Assembly (NCBI RefSeq): GCF_025128055.1
Contig: NZ_JAHLYS010000048.1
Span: forward strand, 1-64,000
Direction of reading: 5' to 3'
Origin: Synechococcus sp. CS-1329
GTDB lineage: Bacteria; Cyanobacteriota; Cyanobacteriia; PCC-6307; Cyanobiaceae
DNA: 64,000 nucleotides
Positions 7,245-49,977 of the stretch are shown here, one piece after another. A program made the position numbers and the translations under genes. The number at the start of each line of letters is the position of its first letter. The stretch's first letter is position 1. Below the pieces are notes generated by a model. The model worked only from the letters and a program-made list of their open reading frames with translations, made no database searches and had not been told where the DNA came from.

Positions 7245-8137
7245 GCGCTGATCCCCAGCCGGCCGCTGCCCCCGCTTCTGGCCCGGTGTTGCCGGGGGAG
7301 AGCCTGGTGGACTGGCAGCCCGCCGCCAGCTACGAGGACATCCGCTTCGACCTCTGTGGGGAGGGGATCGCCCGGATCGCCATCAACCGTCCGGCCAAGC
7401 GCAACGCCTTCCGCCCGCGCACGGTGGTGGAGCTCTACGACGCCTTCAGCCGGGTGCGCGACAACCCGCGGGTGGGCGCGGTGCTGTTCACCGGTGTGGG
7501 CCCGGCCGCCGACGGTGGCTACGCCTTCTGCGCCGGCGGCGATCAGAGCGTGCGTGGCGATGGCGGCTACCTCGATGAAAGCGGCCTGCCGCGGCTGAAC
7601 GTGCTCGATCTGCAACGCCAGATCCGCTCCCTGCCCAAGGTGGTGATCGCCCTGGTGGCGGGCTACGCCATCGGCGGCGGCCAGGTGCTGCACCTGCTCT
7701 GCGACCTCAGCCTGGCGGCGGAGAACGCCGTCTTCGGCCAGACGGGTCCGCGGGTGGGCAGCTTCGATGGCGGTTTCGGCGCCGGCTACCTGGCGCGGCT
7801 GGTGGGCCAGCGCAAGGCCCGCGAGATCTGGTTCCTCTGCCGCCGCTACAGCGCTGAAGAGGCCCTGGCCATGGGCCTGGTGAATGCGGTGGTGCCGCTC
7901 CATGAGCTGGAGGCCGAGGGGGTGCGCTGGGCCCGGGAAGTGCTGCAGCACAGCCCCACGGCGATCCGTTGCCTCAAGGCCTCCTTCAACGCCGAAACCG
8001 ATGGATTGGCCGGCATCCAGGAGCTGGCGGGCCAGGCCACCCACCTCTTCTATCGAACGGCCGAGGGTCAGGAGGGGCGCAACGCCTTCCTGGAGAAGCG
8101 CGACCCCGACTTCAGCGATTCCCCTTGGTTGCCCTGA
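7241..8137 (+). CDS. menB: 1,4-dihydroxy-2-naphthoyl-CoA synthase
   Basis: Crotonase-fold enzyme that closes the naphthoquinone ring in phylloquinone synthesis. Visible family features are [14 protein letters not shown], the oxyanion-hole region [53 protein letters not shown] with the MenB-specific loop, and the C-terminal FLEKRDPDF. The ATG at 7241 overlaps the menD stop by 4 bp. The N-terminal ~30 residues are Pro/Ala-rich and poorly conserved. Confidence 0.95.
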
Positions 8138-8429
8138 ACCAGGCGCCGCCACCAAAGGGCGCTTGAATTGCAGCATCGGATACAGAACCCATGGTCTGGC
8201 GGCAGCTGGAGATCCATCGGCTGTGCTCGCCGGCCGCCCGGCGCAGGGCTCCCCCCTCACTGCGCTGCCACACCCTCACCAGTAGCTCCAGCGCCTGCTG
8301 CCGGCCGACATCGCCGGGGTTGCCGTCGGCCGGCACAGGCTCCGGCAGCGACTGGCGCTGCAGCGGCATCGACCGCTGCTCTCCCTGCTCCAGCAGGGCC
8401 AGGGCGATCAGATAGGGAGCATCAGCCAT
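8112..8429 (-). CDS. Small hypothetical protein
   Basis: An open frame of 105 residues starting [18 protein letters not shown], with a Pro-rich middle ([13 protein letters not shown]) and a helix-like [14 protein letters not shown]. It fills the otherwise empty gap between menB and the next gene, and the first ~65 residues look like ordinary protein of this genome. The last ~35 residues run into the menB 3' end (26-bp convergent overlap) and look less natural. I do not recognise a domain; the call rests on frame, composition and context. Confidence 0.45.
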
Positions 8430-8520
8430 AGAACTGGGCAGCGGAGGTCCCTGACACAGTGGCTCCCGGCTCGGCGCGGCTGCTCTTGAGCCGCTTGGCT
8501 AACTTGAGAATCAAGAGCGT

Positions 8521-9207
8521 CTGAATCAACCCCTGGCTGCGCCCCCCCGCTTCACCGTCCCCCTGGCGACCCTGCTGCTCGGTGGCCTGCTCAGCCCGGT
8601 TGGCGCCCTGGCCGAAGGCCAGCCCCTGCCACTGGCTACGGCTCCCCAGGCCTGGCATCCCCCGGTGGCGCTCCCCCACACCCCTGCACTCCAACCGCTG
8701 CGCCAGAGAGCGCTGGAAGCTCAACCCAGTGCGCAGCCCCGGGCGGCCGTGGCGGTCGCCTCGCCAGGTCCCCAGCGCAGCCTGGTCCTTCACCGCGGCA
8801 AGCGGCAGGTGGTGGTGGTGGAAGAGGGCCGCGAATTACGGCGTTTCCCTGTGGCGGTGGGCATGCCCGGCTGGGAGACGCCCCTGGGCCGTTTCCAGGT
8901 GATCGAGATGGCTCCCAATCCCACCTGGAAGCATCCGGTGAGCGGCAAGCTCTATCCCCCAGGCCCCAGCAACCCCCTGGGCAGCCGCTGGATCGGCTTC
9001 CACCGTGACTGCGCCGGCAGAAGCGGCTTCAACGGCCAGCAGCACCTGGAGGTGAAAGGCTGCGTCACCGCCGGCTTCCACGGCACCCCCCAGCGGGAGA
9101 GCATCGGCCAGGCGGTGTCCCACGGCTGCGTGCGCATGTACGACGAGAACGTGCGTGACCTGTTTGATCTGGTGCGCATGGGCACCGTGGTGACGGTGCT
9201 GCCCTGA
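8521..9207 (+). CDS. L,D-transpeptidase (YkuD domain), start codon uncertain
   Basis: Periplasmic enzyme of the YkuD family that forms 3-3 peptidoglycan crosslinks or attaches proteins. The catalytic signature is complete: GFHGTPQ followed by SHGCVRMYDENVRDLFDLV near the C-terminus. The first ATG/GTG/TTG in frame is GTG 8665, but the frame is open back to 8503 and encodes an obvious signal peptide (FTVPLATLLLGGLLSPVGALA) before it. The only rare-start candidate ahead of that signal is CTG 8521, which I use here; it gives 228 residues. A sequencing or real frameshift near the run of seven C at about 8541 is the alternative. Confidence 0.75.
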   Translation: MNQPLAAPPRFTVPLATLLLGGLLSPVGALAEGQPLPLATAPQAWHPPVALPHTPALQPLRQRALEAQPSAQPRAAVAVASPGPQRSLVLHRGKRQVVVVEEGRELRRFPVAVGMPGWETPLGRFQVIEMAPNPTWKHPVSGKLYPPGPSNPLGSRWIGFHRDCAGRSGFNGQQHLEVKGCVTAGFHGTPQRESIGQAVSHGCVRMYDENVRDLFDLVRMGTVVTVLP

Positions 9208-9281
9208 GTCCCTGGACCTGGAGTCCGGCGGTCTGAGCAGGGCAGCAAACGTAGAGTTCGGCCCTCCCCTGCGTTCTCCCC

Positions 9282-10856
9282 ATGCGCGTGTTATTCGCCG
9301 CCGCCGAGTGCGCCCCGATGATCAAGGTGGGGGGCATGGGTGATGTGGTGGGGTCGCTGCCACCGGCGGTGGCGGCCCTCGGCCACGACGTGCGCACGAT
9401 CATGCCGGGCTACGGCAGGCTCTGGAGCCGCCTGGAGGTCCCCACCGAGCCGGTCTGGCGAGGCCGGGCCATGGGCAATGATTTCGCCGTCTATGAAACC
9501 CGGCATCCGACCCATGGCTTGCCGCTGTATCTCATCGGCCATCCGGTCTTCGATCCCGAGCGCATCTACGGCGGCGAGGATGAGGATTGGCGCTTCACGT
9601 TCTTCGCCAACGCCGCCGCTGAATTCGCCTGGAATCACTGGAAACCAGAGGTCTTTCACTGCCACGACTGGCACACCGGCATGATCCCGGTCTGGATGCA
9701 CCAGGACCCTGAGATCAGCACGGTCTTCACCATTCACAACCTCGAGTATCAGGGCCCCTGGCGCTGGAAACTCGAACGCATGACCTGGATTCCCTGGTAC
9801 ATGCAGGGAGACCACACCATGGCCGCCGCTCTGCTCTATGCCGATCGGGTCAATGCCGTCTCCCCCACCTATGCCCAGGAGATCCGCACGCCCGAGTATG
9901 GCGAGCGCCTCGATGGCCTGCTGAATTACATCAGCGGCAAATTGCGCGGCATTCTCAACGGCATCGACACCGAAGCCTGGAATCCCGCCAGCGACACGCT
10001 GCTGCCCGCCTGCTTCAGCGCCACCGACATGGCCCCGAGAGCCACCAACAAACAGGTGCTGCAGGAGCGCATGGGGCTGGAGGTGAACCCCGACACCTAT
10101 CTGATGGGGATGGTGAGCCGGCTGGTGGACCAGAAGGGGGTGGACCTGCTGCTGCAGGTGGCCGACCGGGTGCTGGCCTATTCCGACAGCCAGATCGTGG
10201 TGCTGGGCACCGGCGACCGCAGCTATGAGTCGGGCCTCTGGCAGATGGCTTCCCGCCATCCCGGCCGCTTCTCCGTCTTCCTCACCTACGACGATGCCCT
10301 GGCCCGGTTGATCTATGCCGGTGCCGATGCCTTCTTGATGCCCAGTCGCTTCGAACCCTGCGGCATCAGTCAGATGCTGGCGATGCGCTATGGCTGCATC
10401 CCGATCGTGCGCAAGGTGGGGGGCCTGGTGGACACCGTCCAGCCCCATGTGCCCGCCGAGCACAGCGGCACGGGCTTCTGCTTTGATCGCTATGAGCCGG
10501 TGGATTTTTACACCACCATCGTTCGTTCCTGGGAGGCCTATCGCCACAGCCACAGCTGGCGGGAGCTGCAGTTGCGTGCCATGGCGGTGGACCACAGCTG
10601 GACCCGCTCGGCCCTGGAGTACGACGCCATGTACCGCGATGTGCGCGGGGTGAAACAACCCACCCCCTCAGCCGCCGATGTGGAGCAGTTCTCCCTCGGT
10701 CAGGAGGCCGACCCCAGCCTCGTCCCCTCCGCTGGATCGACCCAGGCGGCGACCTCAGGACAAACGGCTGAAGCCTCGGCCGCCGCCGCCCGGCCGGCCG
10801 GGGGCGGCGGTCCCCGCAATCCCCTCTCCGCTCTCTTGCGCCGCGGCCAGGGCTGA
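9282..10856 (+). CDS. glgA: Glycogen synthase
   Basis: Transfers glucose from ADP-glucose to glycogen, the cell's carbon store. The GT5 hallmarks are present: N-terminal [15 protein letters not shown] (ADP-glucose loop), [19 protein letters not shown], and the C-terminal [19 protein letters not shown]. At 524 residues it is slightly longer than usual owing to a low-complexity Ala/Pro/Gly tail from about residue 465, which is probably disordered. The next gene begins 2 bp after the stop. Confidence 0.96.
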
Positions 10857-40054: not shown

Positions 40055-41431
40055 TCAGCCCGCCAACGGCAGTCTCACGCTGAAAAGGCTCCCAGCCCCC
40101 AGCTTTGACGACACGTTGATCTCCCCTTGATGGCGGCGAACGATCGCTGCCGCGATGGAAAGGCCCAAGCCTGTGCCACCCTGACTCCGGGAGCGCCCCC
40201 CATCACTGCGGAAGAAACGATCAAAGAGGCGCCGCTGATCGGCAGGGCTGATGCCGATGCCGTTGTCCCTCACCTGCAGTAGCGCCTGATGTCCCTCCCG
40301 GCTCAGGCTCAGCACCACCTCCCCGCCGCTGGGGGTGTAGTGAATTGCATTCAACAGCAGGTTGAACACCAGCCGATAAAGCTCGGATTCCACAGCCAGC
40401 AGCTCGAGGCTTGGATCCCCACCCAGCAGCTGCAGTTGAACCCCTGCTGCCGCAGCCGCCTCACTGGTCTCCTCCACGAGGTCGCGCCCAATCTGAGTCA
40501 AGGAACAGAGCTGTCGTGCCGCGACTGTCTCGGGAGCATCGAGGCGGGCCAGAAACAAGAGATCTGTGATCAAGCGGCTCAGCCGTTGTCCCTGCCCGTG
40601 GACCACCGTCAGGGTCTGCTCGATCCCCATGTTTTCAGCGGGCTGCTGTCTTCTGTAGGCCTCCACCACGGCTAGCAGGTTGGCCAGAGGTGCGCGCAGT
40701 TCGTGAGCTGCATCGGCGGTGAACTGCTCCTGCTGCCGGTACGCCGCCAGCAGAGGGCTCATCGCCAGACCCGACAGCCACCAACTGGCCAGGCCCGCCA
40801 CCAGTAGGGCGAACACAACAATCGTCTGAGTTGCCCACCAGAGCCGTTCCCGCTCTGCGTCGAGCCCGCTCAAGCTGCGCCCGATTTGCAGATAACCCCA
40901 ATCCTGCTCCTTCGCATTTGCGCCAGGGTGCGCTGGCGTATGGGAACGGTGCAGGTGGATCGAATACTGCAGAAAGCGATCGCCCCCTGGCCCCGCCACC
41001 ACCGACCAGGCGGGGCCGGAGAGTTCAGTCTTGGCTCGTGGCGAATGAATTGGCGATCCCGGGGAATGGGCGATCAGAACGCCGCGGGGATCCAGCAGGC
41101 GCAGATAGAACCGCTCCGGGTCCGTGACGCTCACGGCATGACGCGAGATCAGTGAGGGGGGAAACGGACAGGGATCGCCTACCAGGCAAAGACCGGGAAG
41201 CACAGCGGCCAGCTGGGGAGAGGGCTTGGCTTCTTGTGGCAACAATGGCTTGAGACTGTCATGCAAGGTGCCGGCCAGGGTTTCCACCTCGCGCTCGAGG
41301 GCGGTCCAGTTGGCACGCATCAGCAGGCCAAACATTCCAAAGCCAGCGCTATAGAGAATCACCCCGATCACCGCCAGGTAGACAGCCGCCAGTCGCAGGC
41401 GGCTGCGGGGGATGGGTCCAGGCTTGGCCAC
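40055..41431 (-). CDS. Sensor histidine kinase, probable metal sensor
   Basis: 458 residues: two membrane segments (about 13-37 and 203-222) enclosing a periplasmic sensor loop of about 160 residues, then a HisKA domain with the phospho-accepting His243 (FTADAAHELRAPLANLLA) and an HATPase domain with LLLNAIHYTPSGG, DNGIGIS and GGTGLGLSI. The sensor loop holds Cys82 and Cys88 (LCLVGDPC) and a His cluster at 159, 161, 164 and 168, plausible metal ligands. It resembles the RppB/NrsS group. The GTG start has a strong AGGAGGT 7 bp upstream, 11 bp after the regulator gene. Confidence 0.9.
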   Translation of the reverse strand: MAKPGPIPRSRLRLAAVYLAVIGVILYSAGFGMFGLLMRANWTALEREVETLAGTLHDSLKPLLPQEAKPSPQLAAVLPGLCLVGDPCPFPPSLISRHAVSVTDPERFYLRLLDPRGVLIAHSPGSPIHSPRAKTELSGPAWSVVAGPGGDRFLQYSIHLHRSHTPAHPGANAKEQDWGYLQIGRSLSGLDAERERLWWATQTIVVFALLVAGLASWWLSGLAMSPLLAAYRQQEQFTADAAHELRAPLANLLAVVEAYRRQQPAENMGIEQTLTVVHGQGQRLSRLITDLLFLARLDAPETVAARQLCSLTQIGRDLVEETSEAAAAAGVQLQLLGGDPSLELLAVESELYRLVFNLLLNAIHYTPSGGEVVLSLSREGHQALLQVRDNGIGISPADQRRLFDRFFRSDGGRSRSQGGTGLGLSIAAAIVRRHQGEINVSSKLGAGSLFSVRLPLAG

Positions 41432-41442
41432 GGCGACACCTC

Positions 41443-42147
41443 CTATGGCTCAGGATCCGGATCGAAGCGATAGCCCTTCGAGGGCACGGTCTCAATTGGA
41501 GAGGCCAGCCCGTAGCTGGCGATCTTGCGCCGCAACAGACGCACCTGGGCCGCGACCACATTGCTGATCGGATCCTCATCCAATGACCAGAGCTGAGAGC
41601 GCAGCCGCGCTCCCGGAATGATCACTTGTGGATGCTCCATGAAGTAGGCCATCAGCTGGAGTTCCTTGGCGGACAGGGTGATCCTGGTGGTTTTCTTTCC
41701 CCGCTGAACGGTGAGGCAGCCCTCGGCCGGATCCAGCACATAGGGCCCGGAACTGAGCAGTGGCTCGCGGTAATTGGGCTGGCGGCGTTGCAGCGCCCGG
41801 ATCCTCGCCAGTAGTTCCTCCATCGCAAAGGGCTTGCTCAGGTAGTCGTCAGCGCCGGCATCAAGGCCTTGCACCCGGTGGCTGGTGTCGGCCAGCGCCG
41901 TAAGCATCAACACCGGCAGGGTCAGACCGGCCCCGCGCACCCGCCGGCAGAGCTCAACCCCGGAAAGGCCTGGCAGCATCCAATCGACGATCGCCAGGCT
42001 GTAGGTGGTCAGCTCACCACTGAGCAGGGTCCAACCTTCTAGGCCACTGGTGCAGCGATCCACCACGTGCCCTTCACGCTGCAGCACGGTCTGGATGGCC
42101 GCAGCCAGATCCTCTTCGTCTTCCACCAGCAGGATCCGCAGCGGCAT
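41443..42147 (-). CDS. OmpR/PhoB-family response regulator
   Basis: 234 residues: receiver domain with the acidic pocket VEDEED, phospho-acceptor Asp55 (LAIVDWMLPG), Thr/Ser switch (LMLTALAD) and Lys (YLSKPFAMEELLARI), then a winged-helix output domain with ITLSAKELQLMAYFM and SNVVAAQVRLLRRKI. It is cotranscribed with the kinase and divergent from the metal RND operon across 103 bp, so it most likely controls that operon, as NrsR and CopR do in Synechocystis. The target is inferred from position. Confidence 0.93.
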   Translation of the reverse strand: MPLRILLVEDEEDLAAAIQTVLQREGHVVDRCTSGLEGWTLLSGELTTYSLAIVDWMLPGLSGVELCRRVRGAGLTLPVLMLTALADTSHRVQGLDAGADDYLSKPFAMEELLARIRALQRRQPNYREPLLSSGPYVLDPAEGCLTVQRGKKTTRITLSAKELQLMAYFMEHPQVIIPGARLRSQLWSLDEDPISNVVAAQVRLLRRKIASYGLASPIETVPSKGYRFDPDPEP

Positions 42148-42250
42148 CAGGGGTCGGCTCCAGCGGGCAGATGCTAGGCAGCACAGCCGATTTCACCTGT
42201 TTTTCATCGCGGTTGCGCCATCCTCCGCCTATCCACCGTTCCCATGGGCC

Positions 42251-42829
42251 TTGGTCAACCGATTCCTGCAGCTGGCGGCTCGAGCCAGCCTCTCCACCGC
42301 TGCCCTGCTCGCTATCGCCACGGCATCACCGCTAGCCAGGGCCCACGTGGGCCACGGTGATGAGTTCCAGCAGCAGGGCGATGCCCGCCAGGTGCAGCGC
42401 AATGCCGACAGCGATGGGCTGCTCGGTGTGGCCACGGCCAAGCCCGAACAAGGACCTGATGGCCTGACCGTGCCCTCCACAGCTCTGGTGGATGCCAATG
42501 GCAAGCCACTGCTTTTTGTGCAGACCGAGAAGACCTACGACCCAGTCTCTGTGGAGACCGGAGCCGACCAGGGAGACCGAGTCGTCGTGACGGGAGGAAT
42601 CGATCCCACCGATGACGTTGTGGTCTCAGGCGCGCTCTTGCTCTACGCCGAGTCCAAGAAGACCCAGCAGGCCGAGCCTGCCGCCGCCAGTGCCAAACCG
42701 GCGGAAGCAGCAGAAACCAACGCTGCAGGAGTCAGCAACCTTCCGGTTCCTGTGCTGGCGGCTGGGGCCGTGGTCTTTCTGGCTGGTGGAGGGATCTGGC
42801 TGAGCCGCCGCAAGAAGACCAATGCTTGA
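42251..42829 (+). CDS. Membrane-anchored mini-adaptor-like protein of the RND operon
   Basis: 192 residues starting at TTG 42251 (the ATG at 42244 is out of frame). Layout: Sec signal ending LARA, a mature N-terminus HVGHGDEFQ that looks metal-binding, then VPSTALVDANGKPLLFVQTEKTYDPVSVETG and GDRVVVTGGIDPTDDVVVSGALLLY, which resemble only the C-terminal membrane-proximal part of CusB/CzcB adaptors. An Ala/Pro/Glu linker and a C-terminal membrane anchor with RRKK follow. The coiled hairpin, lipoyl and barrel core of a true adaptor are missing. It overlaps the pump gene by 8 bp, so it is the operon's first product. Confidence 0.75.
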   Translation: MVNRFLQLAARASLSTAALLAIATASPLARAHVGHGDEFQQQGDARQVQRNADSDGLLGVATAKPEQGPDGLTVPSTALVDANGKPLLFVQTEKTYDPVSVETGADQGDRVVVTGGIDPTDDVVVSGALLLYAESKKTQQAEPAAASAKPAEAAETNAAGVSNLPVPVLAAGAVVFLAGGGIWLSRRKKTNA

Positions 42830-45800
42830 ACGGCTGCTCAATGCCACCCTGCGCTTTTCGATCGCCCGCCGCTGGCTGATCGTGGCTGCAGCCCTCATGA
42901 TCAGCGTCTGGGGCGTGCTGGCCGTCGGCCAGATGCCGCTGGATGTGTTCCCACCGTTTGCGCCACCGCAGGTGGATGTGCAGACCAGCGCCGCCGGTCT
43001 TTCGCCGGAAGAGGTGGAATCCCGCCTCACCCTGCCGATCGAATCGGCCGTCAACGGCATCGCCGGGGTGGAGACCGTGCGCTCCTCCTCCAAGGCGGGG
43101 CTGTCGATGGTGCAGGTGGTGTTCAACCAGAACGCCGACATCTATCGGGCCCGCCAGTCGGTCGCCGAGCGGCTGCAGCAGGTCACCCCCCAGCTGCCTG
43201 CCAATGCCAGCGCCCCGGAACTGTCACCACTGGTCTCTCCGCTGGGCACGATCCTGCAGCTCGCCTTCACGGTGAACGGGGATGGCGCCACCTCGCTGCT
43301 GGATCTGCAGCAGATGGTGCTGCGCTCCTATCGCCAGGCGATCCTGGCGGTGCCGGGTGTGGCCCAGGTGACGATCTACGGCGGCGATGAACAGCAGTTT
43401 CAGGTGTTGCTCGATCCCCAGGAGCTGCAGGTCCAGAGCGTCTCGCTTCAGGCGGTGATTGAGGGGGTGTCTGAGGCGATGGCGACCAGCCCCGGCGGCT
43501 TCCTGATCGCCGGCGGCCAGGAGCGACTCATTCGCCCCCTGGCTCAGATCACCCAGGTCACCGATCTGGCCAATGCCGCCGTCCGCAATCAACAGGGCCA
43601 ACCGGTCCTGCTCTCCACCCTGGCGGAGGTGAAGCGCGGTGTGGCGCTCAAGCGTGGGGACGCCAGCTTCAACGGCAAACCCTCGGTGGTGCTGATGGTG
43701 ATCAAGCAGCCTGATGTCGACACCCCCACGGTGACGCGCGCCGTGGAGCAACGCGTGGCCGAACTGAACCGGACTCTGCCAGCAGATGTGCAGATTCACC
43801 GTACCTTCCGCCAAAGCGACTTCATCGACAGCGCGATTCGCAATGTGAGTGAGTCGTTGCTGCAGGGAGTAGTGATTGTCTCACTGGTGATCGTGCTGTT
43901 CCTGATGAACTGGCGCGCCGCCGTGATCAGCCTCAGTGCCATTCCGCTGTCCCTGTTGATCGGGCTGATGCTGATGAAGGCCCTGGGCCTCGGCATCAAC
44001 ACCATGACCCTCGGCGGTCTGGTGGTGGCGATCGGATCGGTGGTCGATGACTCGATCGTTGACATGGAGAACTGTTACCGCGGCCTGCGCAGCAACCAGG
44101 GGAGCAATAAGCCGAAATCTTCTCTGCAGGTGGTGTTTAATACCTCGGTGGAGGTGCGCCAACCGGTGCTGTTCTCCACCGTGATCATCGCGGTGGTGTT
44201 TGCGCCGATCTTTTCGCTCACCGGGGTGGAAGGGCGCATCTTTGCGCCCATGGGTCTGGCCTATCTGTTATCCATCGGCGCCTCCACGCTGGTGGCAGTT
44301 ACCCTCTCCCCGGCCCTCTGTGCCATCTTGCTGGCGCCGGTGCAACTGCCGGAGGAGAACACCTGGCTGGCCAACCAGGCCGAGCGGCTCTACGGTCCGA
44401 TTCTTGACCTCACGCTGGCCTGGCCCAAGCGGGTGTTTGCCCTGGCCCTTGCGCTGCTGGTGGCCACCAGCCTGGTCCTGCCGGCCCTAGGGCGGGTGTT
44501 CCTGCCCGAATTCCGCGAGAAGTCGCTGGTCAACTCGATGGTGCTTTACCCCGGGGTATCACTGGAGATGACCAACCGTGCCGGTCAGGCCCTCACCCGT
44601 TCCCTGCAGAACAATCCATTCTTTGAGTGGGTGCAGGTGCGCACCGGCCGGGCTCCCGGTGATGCCGATGGCGCTGGCGTGAACCTGGCACACGTGGACG
44701 TGGAGCTGAGCGATCAGGCCATGGCTAACCGCCCTGCCGCCATTGCCGAACTACGCAAGGCGTTCCTGAGTCTTCCCGGCGTGGCCCCAAACATCGGCGG
44801 CTTCATCTCCCACCGCATGGATGAGGTGCTCTCCGGGGTGCGCAGCGCCATCGCCATCAAGATCTATGGCACTGATCTGGGCGAGCTGCGTCGCCTTGGC
44901 GAAGCGGTGGAGAAGGCCATCGAGCCGATTGCGGGTGTGGTGGATCTGCAACTGGAGCCGCAACTACCCATCCCCCAGGTGCAGATCCACTACGACCGCC
45001 CGCTGGCAGCGGCCCTGGGGCTGACGGTGGATGAACTCTCGCAGGCAGTGGAAATCGCCCTCAACGGCAAGGTAGCCGGCCACGTGGTCGAGGCCGGGGT
45101 GCGCAGCGACGTGTTGGTGCAGCTCAAGGAGGACACCCGCCAGAGCCTCAATGCCATTCGCTCGGTGCCGGTGGCGTTTGTCAACGGAATGACGGTGCCC
45201 CTCGGCAGCGTCGCCTGGATTGAGGAAGGGCTGGGCTCCAACGTCGTCAACCGGGAGGACGTTTCCCGCTTGATCGTGGTATCCACAAACGTGAGCGGCC
45301 GCCCACTGGGCAGTGTGGTGAAAGACATTCAGCGCACGATCGCTCGCGAAGTGCGCCTGCCCCAGGGCTACACAATTCGCTATGGCGGCCAGTTTGAATC
45401 GGAGGAACGAGCGACCGCCAGTCTGGTCTCGTACAGCCTGGTTGCCGCAGTTGTGATCAGCGTGCTGATGGTGGTCTCCATCAAGTCACTGCCAGCCACG
45501 GTGGCGATCATGCTCAACCTGCCCCTGGCCCTGATCGGTGGGGTGATGGCGGTGTTACTGACTGGGGGCGTGTTGTCGATCGCCTCGCTGATCGGCTTCA
45601 TCACCCTGTTTGGCATTGCCGTGCGCAACGGCCTGCTGCTGGTCGACAACTACAACCGCCGCCACGCCGATGGTCAGCCCCTGGCCCAAGTGATCCGAGA
45701 GGGAAGCCTGGAGCGACTGAACGCGATCCTGATGACCGCCCTTTCCTCGGCCCTCGGTGCCCTGCCTCTGGCCATGGCCTTCGGTGCCGGCAACGAAATC

Positions 45801-45953
45801 CTGCAGCCCCTGGCGATCGTGGTGCTTGGCGGTCTGATCACCTCCACGGCGCTGACGCTGCTTGTGATTCCGGCGCTTTACGCGCAGTTTGGTCAATGGC
45901 TTCTGCCCCCAGTCGCGACTCCCTCCCCTTCCCTTCCTGCTTCCCAGCTATGA
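42822..45953 (+). CDS. CusA/CzcA-type heavy-metal efflux RND pump
   Basis: 1043-residue inner-membrane proton antiporter that exports metal ions. It starts MLERLLNATLRFSIARRWLIV and has the RND two-fold layout of 12 helices with two large periplasmic loops; a helix-4 acidic signature reads VAIGSVVDDSIVDMEN. This is the HME (heavy-metal) class, but the VVDDSIVDMEN pattern is not the classical Cus copper/silver or CzcA zinc/cobalt one, so the metal remains open; nickel or cobalt are possible. Genes on both sides are coupled: 8-bp overlap with the mini-adaptor and ATGA overlap with the full adaptor. Confidence 0.93.
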   Translation: MLERLLNATLRFSIARRWLIVAAALMISVWGVLAVGQMPLDVFPPFAPPQVDVQTSAAGLSPEEVESRLTLPIESAVNGIAGVETVRSSSKAGLSMVQVVFNQNADIYRARQSVAERLQQVTPQLPANASAPELSPLVSPLGTILQLAFTVNGDGATSLLDLQQMVLRSYRQAILAVPGVAQVTIYGGDEQQFQVLLDPQELQVQSVSLQAVIEGVSEAMATSPGGFLIAGGQERLIRPLAQITQVTDLANAAVRNQQGQPVLLSTLAEVKRGVALKRGDASFNGKPSVVLMVIKQPDVDTPTVTRAVEQRVAELNRTLPADVQIHRTFRQSDFIDSAIRNVSESLLQGVVIVSLVIVLFLMNWRAAVISLSAIPLSLLIGLMLMKALGLGINTMTLGGLVVAIGSVVDDSIVDMENCYRGLRSNQGSNKPKSSLQVVFNTSVEVRQPVLFSTVIIAVVFAPIFSLTGVEGRIFAPMGLAYLLSIGASTLVAVTLSPALCAILLAPVQLPEENTWLANQAERLYGPILDLTLAWPKRVFALALALLVATSLVLPALGRVFLPEFREKSLVNSMVLYPGVSLEMTNRAGQALTRSLQNNPFFEWVQVRTGRAPGDADGAGVNLAHVDVELSDQAMANRPAAIAELRKAFLSLPGVAPNIGGFISHRMDEVLSGVRSAIAIKIYGTDLGELRRLGEAVEKAIEPIAGVVDLQLEPQLPIPQVQIHYDRPLAAALGLTVDELSQAVEIALNGKVAGHVVEAGVRSDVLVQLKEDTRQSLNAIRSVPVAFVNGMTVPLGSVAWIEEGLGSNVVNREDVSRLIVVSTNVSGRPLGSVVKDIQRTIAREVRLPQGYTIRYGGQFESEERATASLVSYSLVAAVVISVLMVVSIKSLPATVAIMLNLPLALIGGVMAVLLTGGVLSIASLIGFITLFGIAVRNGLLLVDNYNRRHADGQPLAQVIREGSLERLNAILMTALSSALGALPLAMAFGAGNEILQPLAIVVLGGLITSTALTLLVIPALYAQFGQWLLPPVATPSPSLPASQL

Positions 45954-47107
45954 ATCTGAGCCTCAACCGCATCACGAATCGGCTGCGCCAGCCCCGGTTG
46001 CTGCTTGCCCTGGCCGTTGGCGGATCGCTGCTGGTGGGCTTTGCTCTGGGCCGCTTTCAAGGTGGGGCTGCCACCTTGGAAGCGCCCACAGGGGCGGCAA
46101 AAGAGAGCTCAGATCGTGGCGTTTCCATCGCCATGAGTGATGAGCAACTGCGTCGTTCGGGGCTCAGCACCATCCGCCCTGAAGTGAGCGTGGGCACCGA
46201 ACGCCCGATGTCAGGTTTTGTAGAAGCAGCTGTTGGAGCGCAATCCAATGTGGGCATGCCGGTGGCGGGCCTCATCCTTCGCGTGCTTGTGGCGCCAGGC
46301 GGTGCTGTAAGCGCCGGTGAGCCGATCGCTGAAGTGCAGAGTCCCGATGCGGCGGTGGCGCGAGCCGACGCTGAGGCGGCCAAGGCCACGGCACAGTCGC
46401 TGGCTTATCAGTACCGTCTGGTCGGCCCGGCAGCACAGCAGGGTGCTCTGTCGGCACAGGAATTGGAGAGCCGCCGCATTGCCAGCGTGACCGCAGCCAG
46501 CAGCGCCCGTGCTGCGGCGGCTACGGCCACGGCGATGGGACAACCCGATGCCATGGGACGCCTGTTGGTCCGAAGCCCGATCCATGGCCAGATCACGGCG
46601 GTGAAGACGTCACCCGGAGCGGTGCTTCAAGCGGGTGAAGTAGTCGCCCAGATCAACGATGCCCGTGGCAGCGAACTGCGCTTCCTGGTGTCGCCGGTGC
46701 TGGCCGCCAACCTGAAGAGCGGCCAGCTGATGCGCGTGAAGGCGGGATCGAGAGATCTGCGTGCTCGCGTGGTGGCGGTCGCCCCCGACAGCAGCACAGG
46801 AAACAGAGTCACGGTAGTGCGCGCCCAGTTGGTGGATGCCACGATGCCTCCTGCCGGCACAGCGGTGACGGGCTTTGTGCTGGTGCCGGCCTCCGAACAA
46901 CGGTTCATGGTGCCGGCCGATGCCATTCAGTTGGTCAATGGCTCGACAGTGGTCTTCCGTTACCAACGGGGTGTGGTGGAGACAGTGCCGGTGGTGGTGG
47001 GCCAGCAGTCGGCTGAGCGGGCTGAAATCCTGCGAGGCGTGCGCGGCGGAGATCTGCTGCTGAGCGGCAACACGGCCAAGCTGCGCACCGCCCTGGCCGG
47101 GCAATAG
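45950..47107 (+). CDS. RND efflux periplasmic adaptor (membrane fusion protein)
   Basis: 385 residues: N-terminal anchor (LLLALAVGGSLLVGFALG), lipoyl half-motifs GMPVAGLILRVLVAPGGAVSAGEPIAEV and MGRLLVRSPIHGQITAVKTSPGAVLQAGEVVAQI (given in part), an alpha-hairpin rich in Ala (about residues 130-205), the beta-barrel and a C-terminal MP domain (VPADAIQLVNGSTVVFRYQRG). It should connect the RND pump to a TolC-like channel, which is not in the window. The ATG overlaps the pump stop. The adaptor following the pump is unusual in order. Confidence 0.9.
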   Translation: MNLSLNRITNRLRQPRLLLALAVGGSLLVGFALGRFQGGAATLEAPTGAAKESSDRGVSIAMSDEQLRRSGLSTIRPEVSVGTERPMSGFVEAAVGAQSNVGMPVAGLILRVLVAPGGAVSAGEPIAEVQSPDAAVARADAEAAKATAQSLAYQYRLVGPAAQQGALSAQELESRRIASVTAASSARAAAATATAMGQPDAMGRLLVRSPIHGQITAVKTSPGAVLQAGEVVAQINDARGSELRFLVSPVLAANLKSGQLMRVKAGSRDLRARVVAVAPDSSTGNRVTVVRAQLVDATMPPAGTAVTGFVLVPASEQRFMVPADAIQLVNGSTVVFRYQRGVVETVPVVVGQQSAERAEILRGVRGGDLLLSGNTAKLRTALAGQ

Positions 47108-47124
47108 CGTTCAGACCACGACTG

Positions 47125-47430
47125 ATGGTGGTATGGGCCGGGATTATTGAGGGCCAGCTCCCCCCGGCGGGCACCGCCGGGACGGCGTTCGTGACTGTGC
47201 CGTCCGCGCAACGGCGGTTCACGCTTCCGACCGATGCCGTGCAGCTGCGTAACGGCCAGCCCGTGGTGTTCCGCTATCGCCGCGGCATCGCTGAACTAGC
47301 GACGGTGGTGATCGCTCGCCGCAACGGCGAGCGGGTGAGCATCCTTTCGGGCTTGAGCGGAGCGGTGACGACCTGGTCCTGACAGGCAACACTTCCGTGC
47401 TGCTCTCCTGCCGGACCGATTCGAAACCGT
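47125..47430 (+). pseudogene. Remnant of a second RND adaptor, C-terminal part, frameshifted
   Basis: Beginning 18 bp after the intact adaptor, the translation (LPPAGTAGTAFVTVPSAQRR, LPTDAVQLRNGQPVVFRYRRG) aligns with the last ~95 residues of that adaptor (MPPAGTAVTGFVLVPASEQR, VPADAIQLVNGSTVVFRYQRG). At about 47360 the frame shifts: the correct continuation GDDLVLTGNTSVLL is found in another frame and matches GGDLLLSGNTAKLR of the intact gene. No N-terminal adaptor sequence is present. Divergence from the neighbour is too great for a fresh duplication, so this is a relic of a paralogous system. Confidence 0.8.
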
Positions 47431-47481
47431 GACGACGTGTTGCTGCGGACGTCCTCAGGGAGACGCCCGCAGCGAATGGAG

Positions 47482-47497
47482 GCCCCAGCGCTGGGGC
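47482..47497. promoter_or_regulatory. 16-bp perfect palindrome
   Basis: GCCCCAGCGCTGGGGC is a perfect palindrome located between the adaptor remnant and the convergent gene at 47533-47946. It can fold as GCCCCA / TGGGGC with a GCGC loop. It may act as a terminator for either side, but no T-run follows; other roles are open. Confidence 0.4.
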
Positions 47498-47532
47498 TTC
47501 TCAATCATGGCAACAGACCTAAGGGGAATACT

Positions 47533-47946
47533 TCAGGGCCTGACCTTTTCACATACCCCCAGATACTGCAGGCGGGCTCGGGTGGTGTCTGCCACCATCA
47601 CGAAGTCCAGATCCTCCGTATCAAATGAGACCCGCTCATTGCGACCCTGCACGGGAATCGTGAAGCGGACGTCATCATCACGGAACAAGGCCGGCACCGT
47701 TGTGGTTTTGCCATCGATGACAACCGCAACTTGCTGAGACCTTCGATCAAGCTGAAGCTCGAAGGTCCAGTTGCGGCGACCCCTTGGCTTGACTGGAGAA
47801 AACTTGACGTAGCCAGTCGTGCGCTTAAAACGACAGCTGTAACCGGAAGCCTCCAGATGGTTGACAGCGACAGCCGGTGCGCCATCGATCGCGATCGGCA
47901 GGAGCAGGGAAGTGGCAGCTGCGAATCGAATTGCAAACGCTCTCAT
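47533..47946 (-). CDS. Secreted hypothetical protein
   Basis: 137 residues with a Sec signal (FAIRFAAATSLLLPIAIDGA), followed by a compact basic domain with two cysteines (GYSCRFKR and LGVCEKV) and beta-strand-rich text (WTFELQLDRRSQQVAVVIDG, VRFTIPVQGRNERVSFDTED). It sits inside the decaying metal island, reads toward the adaptor remnant, and has good coding character. No family is recognised; a periplasmic metal or stress protein is only a guess. Confidence 0.6.
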   Translation of the reverse strand: MRAFAIRFAAATSLLLPIAIDGAPAVAVNHLEASGYSCRFKRTTGYVKFSPVKPRGRRNWTFELQLDRRSQQVAVVIDGKTTTVPALFRDDDVRFTIPVQGRNERVSFDTEDLDFVMVADTTRARLQYLGVCEKVRP

Positions 47947-48511
47947 GTTGGGCGTACTGGAGAGATGTACAAGAGGTAATTCTATTGATTCCCAGGGTCA
48001 TCAGTGGCATTCTCTGGCGGCAAAAGCAAGCGCATCTCGCTCCCAGTCCCTCAACAGAACAGCCCTCGCATGTCTGCGGATCAGGCCTCGTGGTGTGTCG
48101 CCTTCAACGCCCCGTATCCCTGCTCTCCGTAACCGCGAGAGATCGCCACTCTATGCAGAGATCCTGGTCACATGGAAGTGCCAAGTCCTGTCGGAGTGAC
48201 TGGCAGCGCGAGCACACCAGAGTCCAATTAATCTTGTTCAGAACATTTATTGGAGCGACCTATCTTTGCCCAAAGGTTGCAGTTGCTCCAGTGGGTATGA
48301 ATCGTTACGGGAAACCTTTTGACGCCGATCATCGCATGCCGTGCCTACCGAGGAATCAGCACCCGCGCGACTTCCTGAGAGGATTCAATCTCAGTCTGTG
48401 TTGAGGTCTGGAGGAAGGCTGATCTCAGCCGTGCGATGGAAGACAATTCGTTGGCGCATCAGATGATGGCTACCTCGGCGCGAGTTTTGAGGCATCACAG
48501 CCTGCGCCGAT
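47947..48511. other. Gene-poor interval of 565 bp inside the metal island
   Basis: No open frame here looks like protein. Base composition is noticeably less GC-rich than the flanking core genes. Overlapping frames exist but have random-looking residues. The interval separates two pieces of a decayed RND system and may hold deleted pump sequence. Confidence 0.5.
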
Positions 48512-48877
48512 GTGTTCCCAGTCTCCGGGGGAATGGCGCGGTCGTCTTACGATCAATTGGTGGACAAGCACAGTCGCCGCCACGTGGAAGGAATCGATCT
48601 CAAGGCGGTGATCCGCGGCGGCAGCCTTCAGCGCCGGAACGCAATCCTGATGACGGCCCTCACCTCGGCCCTGGGCATGCTGCCGCTGGCCCTGGCCTTT
48701 AGGGCAGGCAACGAGATCCTCCAACCCCTGGCGATTGTGGTGCTCGGTGGTTTGATCACCTCCACCAGCCCCACCCTGCTGGTGCTCCCGGCCCTCCATG
48801 CCAGTTTCGGACGCTGGTTGCTCACCCGCCTCCGGAAGCCTGCGCGAGGCTTGAAGCCATTGGCGGTGATCCTGTGA
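48512..48877 (+). pseudogene. Remnant of a second RND pump, C-terminal ~105 residues
   Basis: From about residue 15 on, the frame (LVDKHSRRHVEGIDLKAVIRGGSLQRRNAILMTA in parts) aligns with the end of the intact RND pump (LVDNYNRRHADGQPLAQVIREGSLERLNAILMTA), including the shared GNEILQPLAIVVLGGLITS. Only the last two helices survive; the remaining ~940 residues are gone and the first ~14 residues are unrelated. The frame is intact to its stop, which overlaps the next gene as GTGA, so it might still be translated to start that gene. Confidence 0.85.
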
Positions 48878-49977
48878 CGGGAGTGAGGGGCAACCCGCAG
48901 CGCTGGGGCCTGATCGCCGGCCTGCTGGCTGCCGTGTTCTTCGGCCTCAGCGCACCGTTGATCAGCGTCATCAGCCACGAAGGTTCGCCGCTGATGATCG
49001 CCGCGCTGCTCTACGGAGGAGCTGCCATCGCTCTGGTGGTGGTGCGGGGGGTCCTGGGCCATCAGCAGGAGGAGTCACCGGTTCAGCGCCGTGACCTGCC
49101 ACCGCTGCTGGGGCTCACCGTTCTGGGGGGGATGGTTGGTCCGATCTGCCTGGTGCAGGGTCTCACCCTGCTTTCGGCGGGCTCCGCTTCGCTGCTGCTG
49201 AATCTGGAAGCGGTGTTCACGCTGCTGATCGCGGTGCTGATCGGCTGTGAACACCTCAGCCGCAAGGGGCTGATCGCTGCTGTTCTGACCATAGGAGGTG
49301 CCGTACTGCTCACGAAAGGTTCCTTGAACGGTGCCAGCCTGCAGGGCGCGCTGCTGATCGGCGGGGCTTGTCTTGCCTGGGGGATCGACAACAACCTCAG
49401 CCAACGCCTCAGTTTGTGCAACCCAATTCAGATCGCGCTGCTGAAGGCGATCGGAGCCTCGGTTCCCATGCTTATCCTGGCCCTCGCTGCCCGGCAGTCC
49501 ATACCGGCCTGGCCCGTTCTTCTGGCGTTGCTATCGATTGGCGCCGTTGGGTATGGCCTCTCGATCTGGCTGGATTTGCTCGCTCTTCGCCACCTGGGTG
49601 CGGCGCGGGAATCCGTGGTGTTTTCAACGGCGCCTTTCGTGGGCCTGCTCTTCTCCCTGCTGGTGCTGCGGGAAGCCTTCACCGGTGGCATGGTGATGGC
49701 GTCAGCCGCGATGCTGCTCGGCGTCGCCCTGCTGCTCAAGGAAGATCATTCCCACTTGCATCGGCACCAGGCGCTCCACCATGCCCACCGTCACCGCCAC
49801 GACCTCGCCGGTGGCGACCCGCACCACAGCCACAACCATCCTGGGGATGGCATGGGCCCAGCCAACCCACAAAGGTCTTACTGGCATGCCCATGAGCATC
49901 AGCATGCTCCGATTGAACACGAGCATGCCCACGTCAGTGACGCGCATCACCGCCATGATCACAGCCAGGAACTGTGA
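48874..49977 (+). CDS. DMT/EamA-family permease with His-rich C-terminal tail
   Basis: 367 residues: ten hydrophobic segments forming two EamA halves (first begins WGLIAGLLAAVFFGLSAPLISV; second begins LQGALLIGGACLAWGIDNNLSQ), then about 75 cytoplasmic residues packed with His and Asp (HLHRHQALHHAHRHRHD, HEHQHAPIEHEHAHVSDAHH). EamA proteins export metabolites or ions; the tail suggests binding of a divalent metal. The GTG start overlaps the RND-remnant stop (GTGA), indicating an ancestral shared operon. Metal export is inference. Confidence 0.88.
   Translation: MTGVRGNPQRWGLIAGLLAAVFFGLSAPLISVISHEGSPLMIAALLYGGAAIALVVVRGVLGHQQEESPVQRRDLPPLLGLTVLGGMVGPICLVQGLTLLSAGSASLLLNLEAVFTLLIAVLIGCEHLSRKGLIAAVLTIGGAVLLTKGSLNGASLQGALLIGGACLAWGIDNNLSQRLSLCNPIQIALLKAIGASVPMLILALAARQSIPAWPVLLALLSIGAVGYGLSIWLDLLALRHLGAARESVVFSTAPFVGLLFSLLVLREAFTGGMVMASAAMLLGVALLLKEDHSHLHRHQALHHAHRHRHDLAGGDPHHSHNHPGDGMGPANPQRSYWHAHEHQHAPIEHEHAHVSDAHHRHDHSQEL

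Follow-up and report, generated by a model that had tools for sequence, protein, structure and literature searches.

Anatomy and probable role of NrsB, a short RND adaptor-related protein of a cyanobacterial nickel-efflux locus

The nrs locus and its gene content

The window analysed here, a 64,000-nucleotide stretch of DNA from Synechococcus sp. CS-1329, contains a metal-efflux operon whose first gene encodes a protein of only 192 residues (Table 1). A CusA/CzcA-family RND pump gene comes next and, two genes on from the short gene, a full-length periplasmic adaptor. This agrees with the initial annotation, which had placed the short gene at the head of the operon and had held that its product is not the normal adaptor. 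The divergent regulators belong to the RppA/RppB equivalog family, also named NrsR/NrsS.

Table 1 Features of the nrs locus and of NrsB (window coordinates)
Feature	Position	Strand	Basis or remark
nrsS, RppB-type sensor kinase	40055..41431	-	NF041735 above cut-off
nrsR, RppA-type response regulator	41443..42147	-	NF041734 above cut-off; divergent
Direct repeat TTCACCTGTTTTTCAT, candidate NrsR box	42192..42207	+	upstream of nrsB
nrsB, 192-aa mini-adaptor	42251..42829	+	TTG start; overlaps nrsA by 8 bases
NrsB signal peptide (predicted), residues 1-31	42251..42343	+	cleavage ARA↓H, -3/-1 pattern
NrsB mature N-terminus HVGHGDEF, candidate metal site, His first	42344..42367	+	invariance; similar motif in long CopB-type adaptors
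NrsB peptide HVGHGDEFQQQG			candidate metal-binding segment
NrsB MPD, N-terminal half, residues about 48-63	42392..42439	+	homology via intermediates; model
NrsB deletion junction, residues about 64-71	42440..42463	+	BLASTP split match of PCC 6714 orthologue, transferred by alignment
NrsB MPD, C-terminal half, residues 66-137	42446..42661	+	TIGR00999/TIGR01730 match; model; Foldseek
NrsB C-terminal transmembrane anchor, residues about 164-184, then SRRKK	42740..42802	+	
nrsA, CusA/CzcA-family RND pump	42822..45953	+	TIGR00914 above cut-off; overlaps nrsB by 8 bases
Full-length periplasmic adaptor	45950..47107	+	TIGR01730 above cut-off, positions 24-314 of 322; overlaps nrsA
Adaptor C-terminus remnant	47119..47361	+	
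Remnant of resident nrsA 3' end	48558..48870	+	nucleotide identity
EamA/DMT exporter, long His-rich C-terminal tail	48874..49977	+	recurrent last operon gene

On the basis of synteny and sequence shared with the nrsRS-nrsBACD locus, the window protein is identified as NrsB of the nrsRS-nrsBA nickel-efflux locus. The nrsBACD operon of Synechocystis PCC 6803 is induced by nickel and controlled by NrsRS, and its mutants are nickel-sensitive (PMC4284471, PMC4182526). Identity was assessed against a 219-aa protein of Synechocystis PCC 6714. On plasmid pSYLC of PCC 6714, rppB-rppA diverge from genes for the 219-aa homologue, a CzcA pump, a glycoside hydrolase-annotated protein and an MFS exporter, a set that corresponds to nrsRS-nrsBACD; rppA is separated from the 219-aa gene by two small genes. 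A similar layout of short gene, pump and regulators is seen in Gloeocapsa, Chroococcidiopsis and Chondrocystis, with the name nrsB used in one annotation. The window thus resembles nrsRS-nrsBACD of Synechocystis (slr0793 in PCC 6803) in its divergent RppA/RppB-type regulators, with nrsB first and CusA/CzcA next, but has the full adaptor and the His-rich EamA exporter in place of nrsC and nrsD, both of which are absent downstream of its nrsB. Many other short NrsB genes that share these regulators and this pump likewise lack a detected nrsC or nrsD nearby, and we therefore do not take the two genes as defining NrsB. The EamA exporter is a possible counterpart of NrsD; homologues follow nrsA or the adaptor in several nrs loci (L004, L012, L014, L018, L053, L054, L061).

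The direct repeat TTCACCTGTTTTTCAT upstream of nrsB has a single match in the window against 0.07 expected, and a TTCAY-type direct repeat (TTCAY-N6-TTCAT) precedes nrsB in 62 of the 68 loci collected. This repeat is a candidate binding site for NrsR. A related TTCAT repeat has been reported both as the CopR site and within the divergent nrs promoter (PMC4182526).

The full adaptor of the window has an N-terminal anchor, hairpin helices and a membrane-proximal domain (MPD), and no His motif. Its AlphaFold2 model is of low confidence and shows two long helices, beyond which it is too poor for use. In the remnant region, a small exported-looking ORF of 137 aa (47533-47946, minus strand) has neither a family match nor a homologue among the other fetched loci.

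NrsB as an internally deleted adaptor

The initial annotation had described the protein as a stand-alone, membrane-anchored adaptor fragment. That observation is real and more than chance, being borne out by profile matches and by the anchor. Residues 61-131 match positions 200-270 of 271 in TIGR00999 (E 4e-9) and positions 242-313 of 322 in TIGR01730 (E 1e-6), so that the matches are confined to the last quarter of both adaptor models. Scores are far under the full-length cut-offs (35.8 of 319.3 bits for TIGR00999, 27.8 of 94.9 bits for TIGR01730). By these two models NrsB contains the MPD of RND adaptors, while the beta-barrel, lipoyl and hairpin domains of the family are absent by profile and BLASTP comparison. 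In an alignment of close homologues, all 19 sequences match TIGR00999 at E <= 0.01 and 15 of the 19 match TIGR01730.

The mature N-terminus HVGHGDEF, as previously proposed, directly follows the predicted cleavage site. It is invariant in the 19 aligned sequences, with His32 as the predicted first residue of the mature protein, and much of the MPD core is likewise invariant. Of the 48 short homologues scored, 47 have a hydrophobic helix at the C-terminus. Weak matches to an LPXTG/sortase-type C-terminus were rejected, given that there is no sortase motif and that they are explained by the hydrophobic helix and the basic residues after it. For pairs with enough divergence, dN/dS is 0.06-0.28 over the motif plus MPD and mostly higher over the linker and anchor. 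These sequence comparisons indicate that NrsB is under purifying selection, concentrated on the motif plus MPD.

It had also been proposed that NrsB retains an adaptor-like C-terminal domain only, to which a membrane anchor was added. Neither point survives comparison with the long CopB-type adaptors of cyanobacteria. These proteins of 530-670 aa are found ahead of a pump and, in Synechocystis, close to copMRS-like genes. Their ends comprise a signal peptide, an HxGHxxEF-like motif at the mature N-terminus, an MPD and a C-terminal hydrophobic segment, all of which NrsB shares; the anchor is therefore ancestral and inherited rather than added. BLASTP pairs residues 11-59 of PCC 6714 NrsB with 14-65 of a long adaptor and residues 71-216 with 393-520, and hence about 327 central residues, spanning the lipoyl, hairpin and beta-barrel regions, are missing from NrsB. 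The deletion placed between these blocks joins the two sequence halves of the MPD. Judged from these alignments, NrsB is an internally deleted adaptor of the CopB type, its N-terminus being homologous to that of the long adaptors too.

The N-side homology was assessed directly. At about residues 40-63 of NrsB, three of four short proteins tested score above all shuffles against the long N-terminus, while residues 40-66 of the window protein are alone no better than chance and are linked through intermediates. In a MAFFT alignment, NrsB residues 45-60 had fallen on the C-terminal side of the missing block; a direct score test that included the intermediates led us to adopt the N-side alignment instead. 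The reverse case of a full-length adaptor frameshifted in orthologues was also looked for. None was found beside the loci, and the orthologues are short throughout with the same layout, which rules out NrsB as a frameshifted or truncated full adaptor.

The pumps partnered by short NrsB proteins form one clade (SH-aLRT 100), except for that of locus L076, where the pump next to a short adaptor (8797-9561) groups with the long-adaptor clade. A single clade of short-form partners is rejected on the pump tree (p-AU 0.0003), whereas a single clade of short adaptors is unrejected on the short proteins' own tree (p-AU 0.28). L076 may hence represent a second, independent internal deletion. At L089 (about 7317-8780), the reading frame of an NrsB N-terminus continues into the central part of an RND pump, in what is apparently a decayed, rearranged copy, and L051 (8472-9588) contains a tandem pair of nrsB-like genes, one of which stops after the MPD without an anchor.

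The AlphaFold2 model of NrsB reaches a pLDDT of about 90 over residues of about 50-130, with a helix at 52-58 and a strand at 61-63. Foldseek returns 5a4g as the best PDB match, followed by CusB in the CusBA complex, BesA and TriABC. The 5a4g entry is a 180-residue SilB construct that combines the N-terminal metal-binding site with the MPD, and is also the best single-protein sequence match of NrsB in the PDB. As the alignment crosses the deletion junction without a large gap, natural NrsB shares the layout of this laboratory-made construct, differing in being membrane anchored and in having His, Asp and Glu in its motif. Structural comparison with CusB/CzcB and CusF had been suggested; CusB is among the matches, but a CusF-type fold was found neither by profile nor among the listed structure matches. 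CusB itself binds Cu(I)/Ag(I) through Met ligands, and the CusF fold differs. Borrelia BesA offers a further parallel, as a hairpin-less adaptor that works with an RND pump (PMC4446572) and as a fold match of NrsB, although it retains about 265 residues in structures whereas NrsB also lacks the lipoyl and beta-barrel regions.

Linkage to the pump and a mosaic operon

With the window protein as query, short NrsB was detected in 25 of 386 genomes from the phylum and, within the window's family, in about 50 of 300. A few of the latter (G598, G604, G610, G622) have one in-frame TGA in the nrsB match and are possibly decaying copies. A contig titled as a Bifidobacterium breve MAG (L015) carries a cyanobacterial nrs locus and is probably mis-binned. 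The predicted co-occurrence with RND genes holds elsewhere. In a 68-locus set, in which some strains are reached twice, an RND gene lies directly 3' of nrsB in 66, the other two stopping at a contig edge, and the nrsB and nrsA frames overlap in the window's clade. A divergent regulator lies within 350 bp of nrsB in 53 of the 68; there are several loci with the kinase kilobases distant or absent and nrsA still adjacent. The survey for the NrsB-NrsA-adaptor gene order suggested by the initial annotation did recover it, but in one picocyanobacterial clade only (hereafter the three-gene clade). Outside this clade, no full adaptor lies within about 9 kb of NrsB-NrsA save where copBA forms the adjacent operon, and for some genomes the survey showed no long CopB-type adaptor. 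Over 37 loci, the distance correlation is 0.90 for NrsB-NrsA against 0.86 for NrsB-kinase, and in picocyanobacteria 0.82 against 0.59, a gap that is modest and influenced by shared ancestry.

The window locus itself is chimeric. Its regulators and EamA exporter match those of a two-gene clade (L012, L014, L061 and others), with 75-82% identity for the kinase in full-length comparisons and 81-88% for the exporter, while the closest counterparts of nrsB, nrsA and the full adaptor are those of the three-gene clade (65-90%), whose kinase is only about 50% identical to that of the window. Just 5' of the exporter, the pump remnant (about 48558-48870) has 84% nucleotide identity to nrsA of the two-gene clade, compared with 75% to nrsA of the window itself. 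This mosaic (40055-49977) is most simply explained by an nrsB-nrsA-adaptor cassette having replaced most of a resident nrsBA. As nrsB moved together with nrsA and left the kinase behind, the pump is favoured as the partner of NrsB.

Proposed role of NrsB

RND adaptors bridge their pumps to the outer membrane, and in metal pumps they also deliver metal and activate the pump. We propose, with a probability of roughly 0.6, that NrsB is a natural mini-adaptor, internally deleted, which docks on NrsA through its MPD and presents metal or activates the pump through its N-terminal motif without bridging to the outer membrane. In this model, a CopB-type heavy-metal adaptor would have lost its central lipoyl, hairpin and beta-barrel regions, fusing the N-terminal motif segment and both MPD halves, with the ancestral C-terminal helix as the hold on the inner membrane. 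The periplasmic porter domain of NrsA is the probable docking site for the MPD; the HVGHGDEF segment would either trigger the active state of the pump or supply it with a divalent ion, nickel or one like it. Bridging to the outer-membrane channel would in this strain fall to the separate full adaptor. NrsB anatomy, its homology to both ends of the long adaptors, conservation, operon linkage and co-inheritance with NrsA were computed; docking, metal binding, metal identity and activation we infer from these. As the hairpin is absent, NrsB should be unable to reach an outer-membrane channel, and as only a candidate metal tip, a docking part and an anchor are kept, it probably loads or switches on the pump and is not a linker. 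The motif leaves the metal unfixed, since the same N-terminal motif occurs in copper-linked long adaptors. A further difficulty is that docking sites on the pump would need to be shared in the window, where the full adaptor has an MPD of its own. In CusB, the first 61 residues suffice to bind metal and to confer partial resistance, and the N-terminal region can hand metal on, the MPD providing contact with CusA (PMC4446572, PMC6235853).

Delivery of metal to the pump, its regulation and signalling to the kinase had been suggested as roles at the outset. Pump delivery or activation is the best supported, given that the docking domain and candidate motif are kept, that RND linkage is tight, that NrsB and NrsA co-vary, and that both moved in a shared cassette. 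Signalling is disfavoured: that NrsB regulates NrsS, or reports the state of the pump or metal to it, would fit the divergent nrsRS genes, at most 350 bp away in 53 of the 68 loci, and the common repeat in the intergenic region, but is made very unlikely by loci in which the kinase is distant or missing while nrsA stays adjacent, by the combination in the window of one clade's kinase with another clade's NrsB, and by the closer tracking of NrsA. A more serious competitor, though still an unlikely one, is that NrsB is a non-equivalent structural protomer, occupying one of two adaptor sites per pump subunit while a full adaptor fills the other and does the bridging, an arrangement like that of two-adaptor pumps such as TriABC, with metal handling secondary. 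Adaptors are believed to assemble on pumps as trimers of dimers, and TriABC has two of them (PMC4446572, PMC8277102). TriABC is also among the Foldseek matches, and NrsB, NrsA and a full adaptor are all present in the operons of the three-gene clade. Beyond that clade, however, a full adaptor is missing near most NrsB-NrsA operons, for some genomes the survey showed no long CopB-type adaptor, and a structural role alone leaves the invariant N-terminal His motif unexplained.

Overlap with nrsA in the window's clade and the in-frame stop in a few family genomes could be read as signs of a decayed, functionless adaptor retained solely for translational coupling to nrsA. We regard this as highly improbable in view of purifying selection centred on the motif plus MPD and of the retention of NrsB across cyanobacteria with signal peptide, motif and anchor intact. 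Least probable is a free periplasmic metallochaperone of the CusF kind: NrsB is indeed small and exported, with a conserved His motif and a place in a metal-efflux operon, yet it folds as an adaptor MPD, the listed matches include no CusF-like structure, and it has a membrane anchor.

A wider reading, which we offer tentatively and hold to be possible rather than probable, is that cyanobacterial NrsA-type pumps use a split adaptor. NrsB would be its minimal metal-loading and pump-activating module, with a gene separate from that of the bridging adaptor, and beyond the three-gene clade NrsB alone may serve the pump, with no tripartite bridge. Were the split-adaptor reading true, L076 would mean that the same reduction has arisen twice. 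The name NrsB is already known; what is new is the anatomy. Neither the internally deleted architecture, nor its resemblance to the SilB construct, nor the proposed split adaptor was found in the accessible literature searched. The bridging and the metal-delivery or activation roles of adaptors are experimentally hard to separate. NrsB seems to retain only the delivery and activation set, in which it resembles the SilB construct. This refines its usual portrayal as an ordinary RND efflux subunit.
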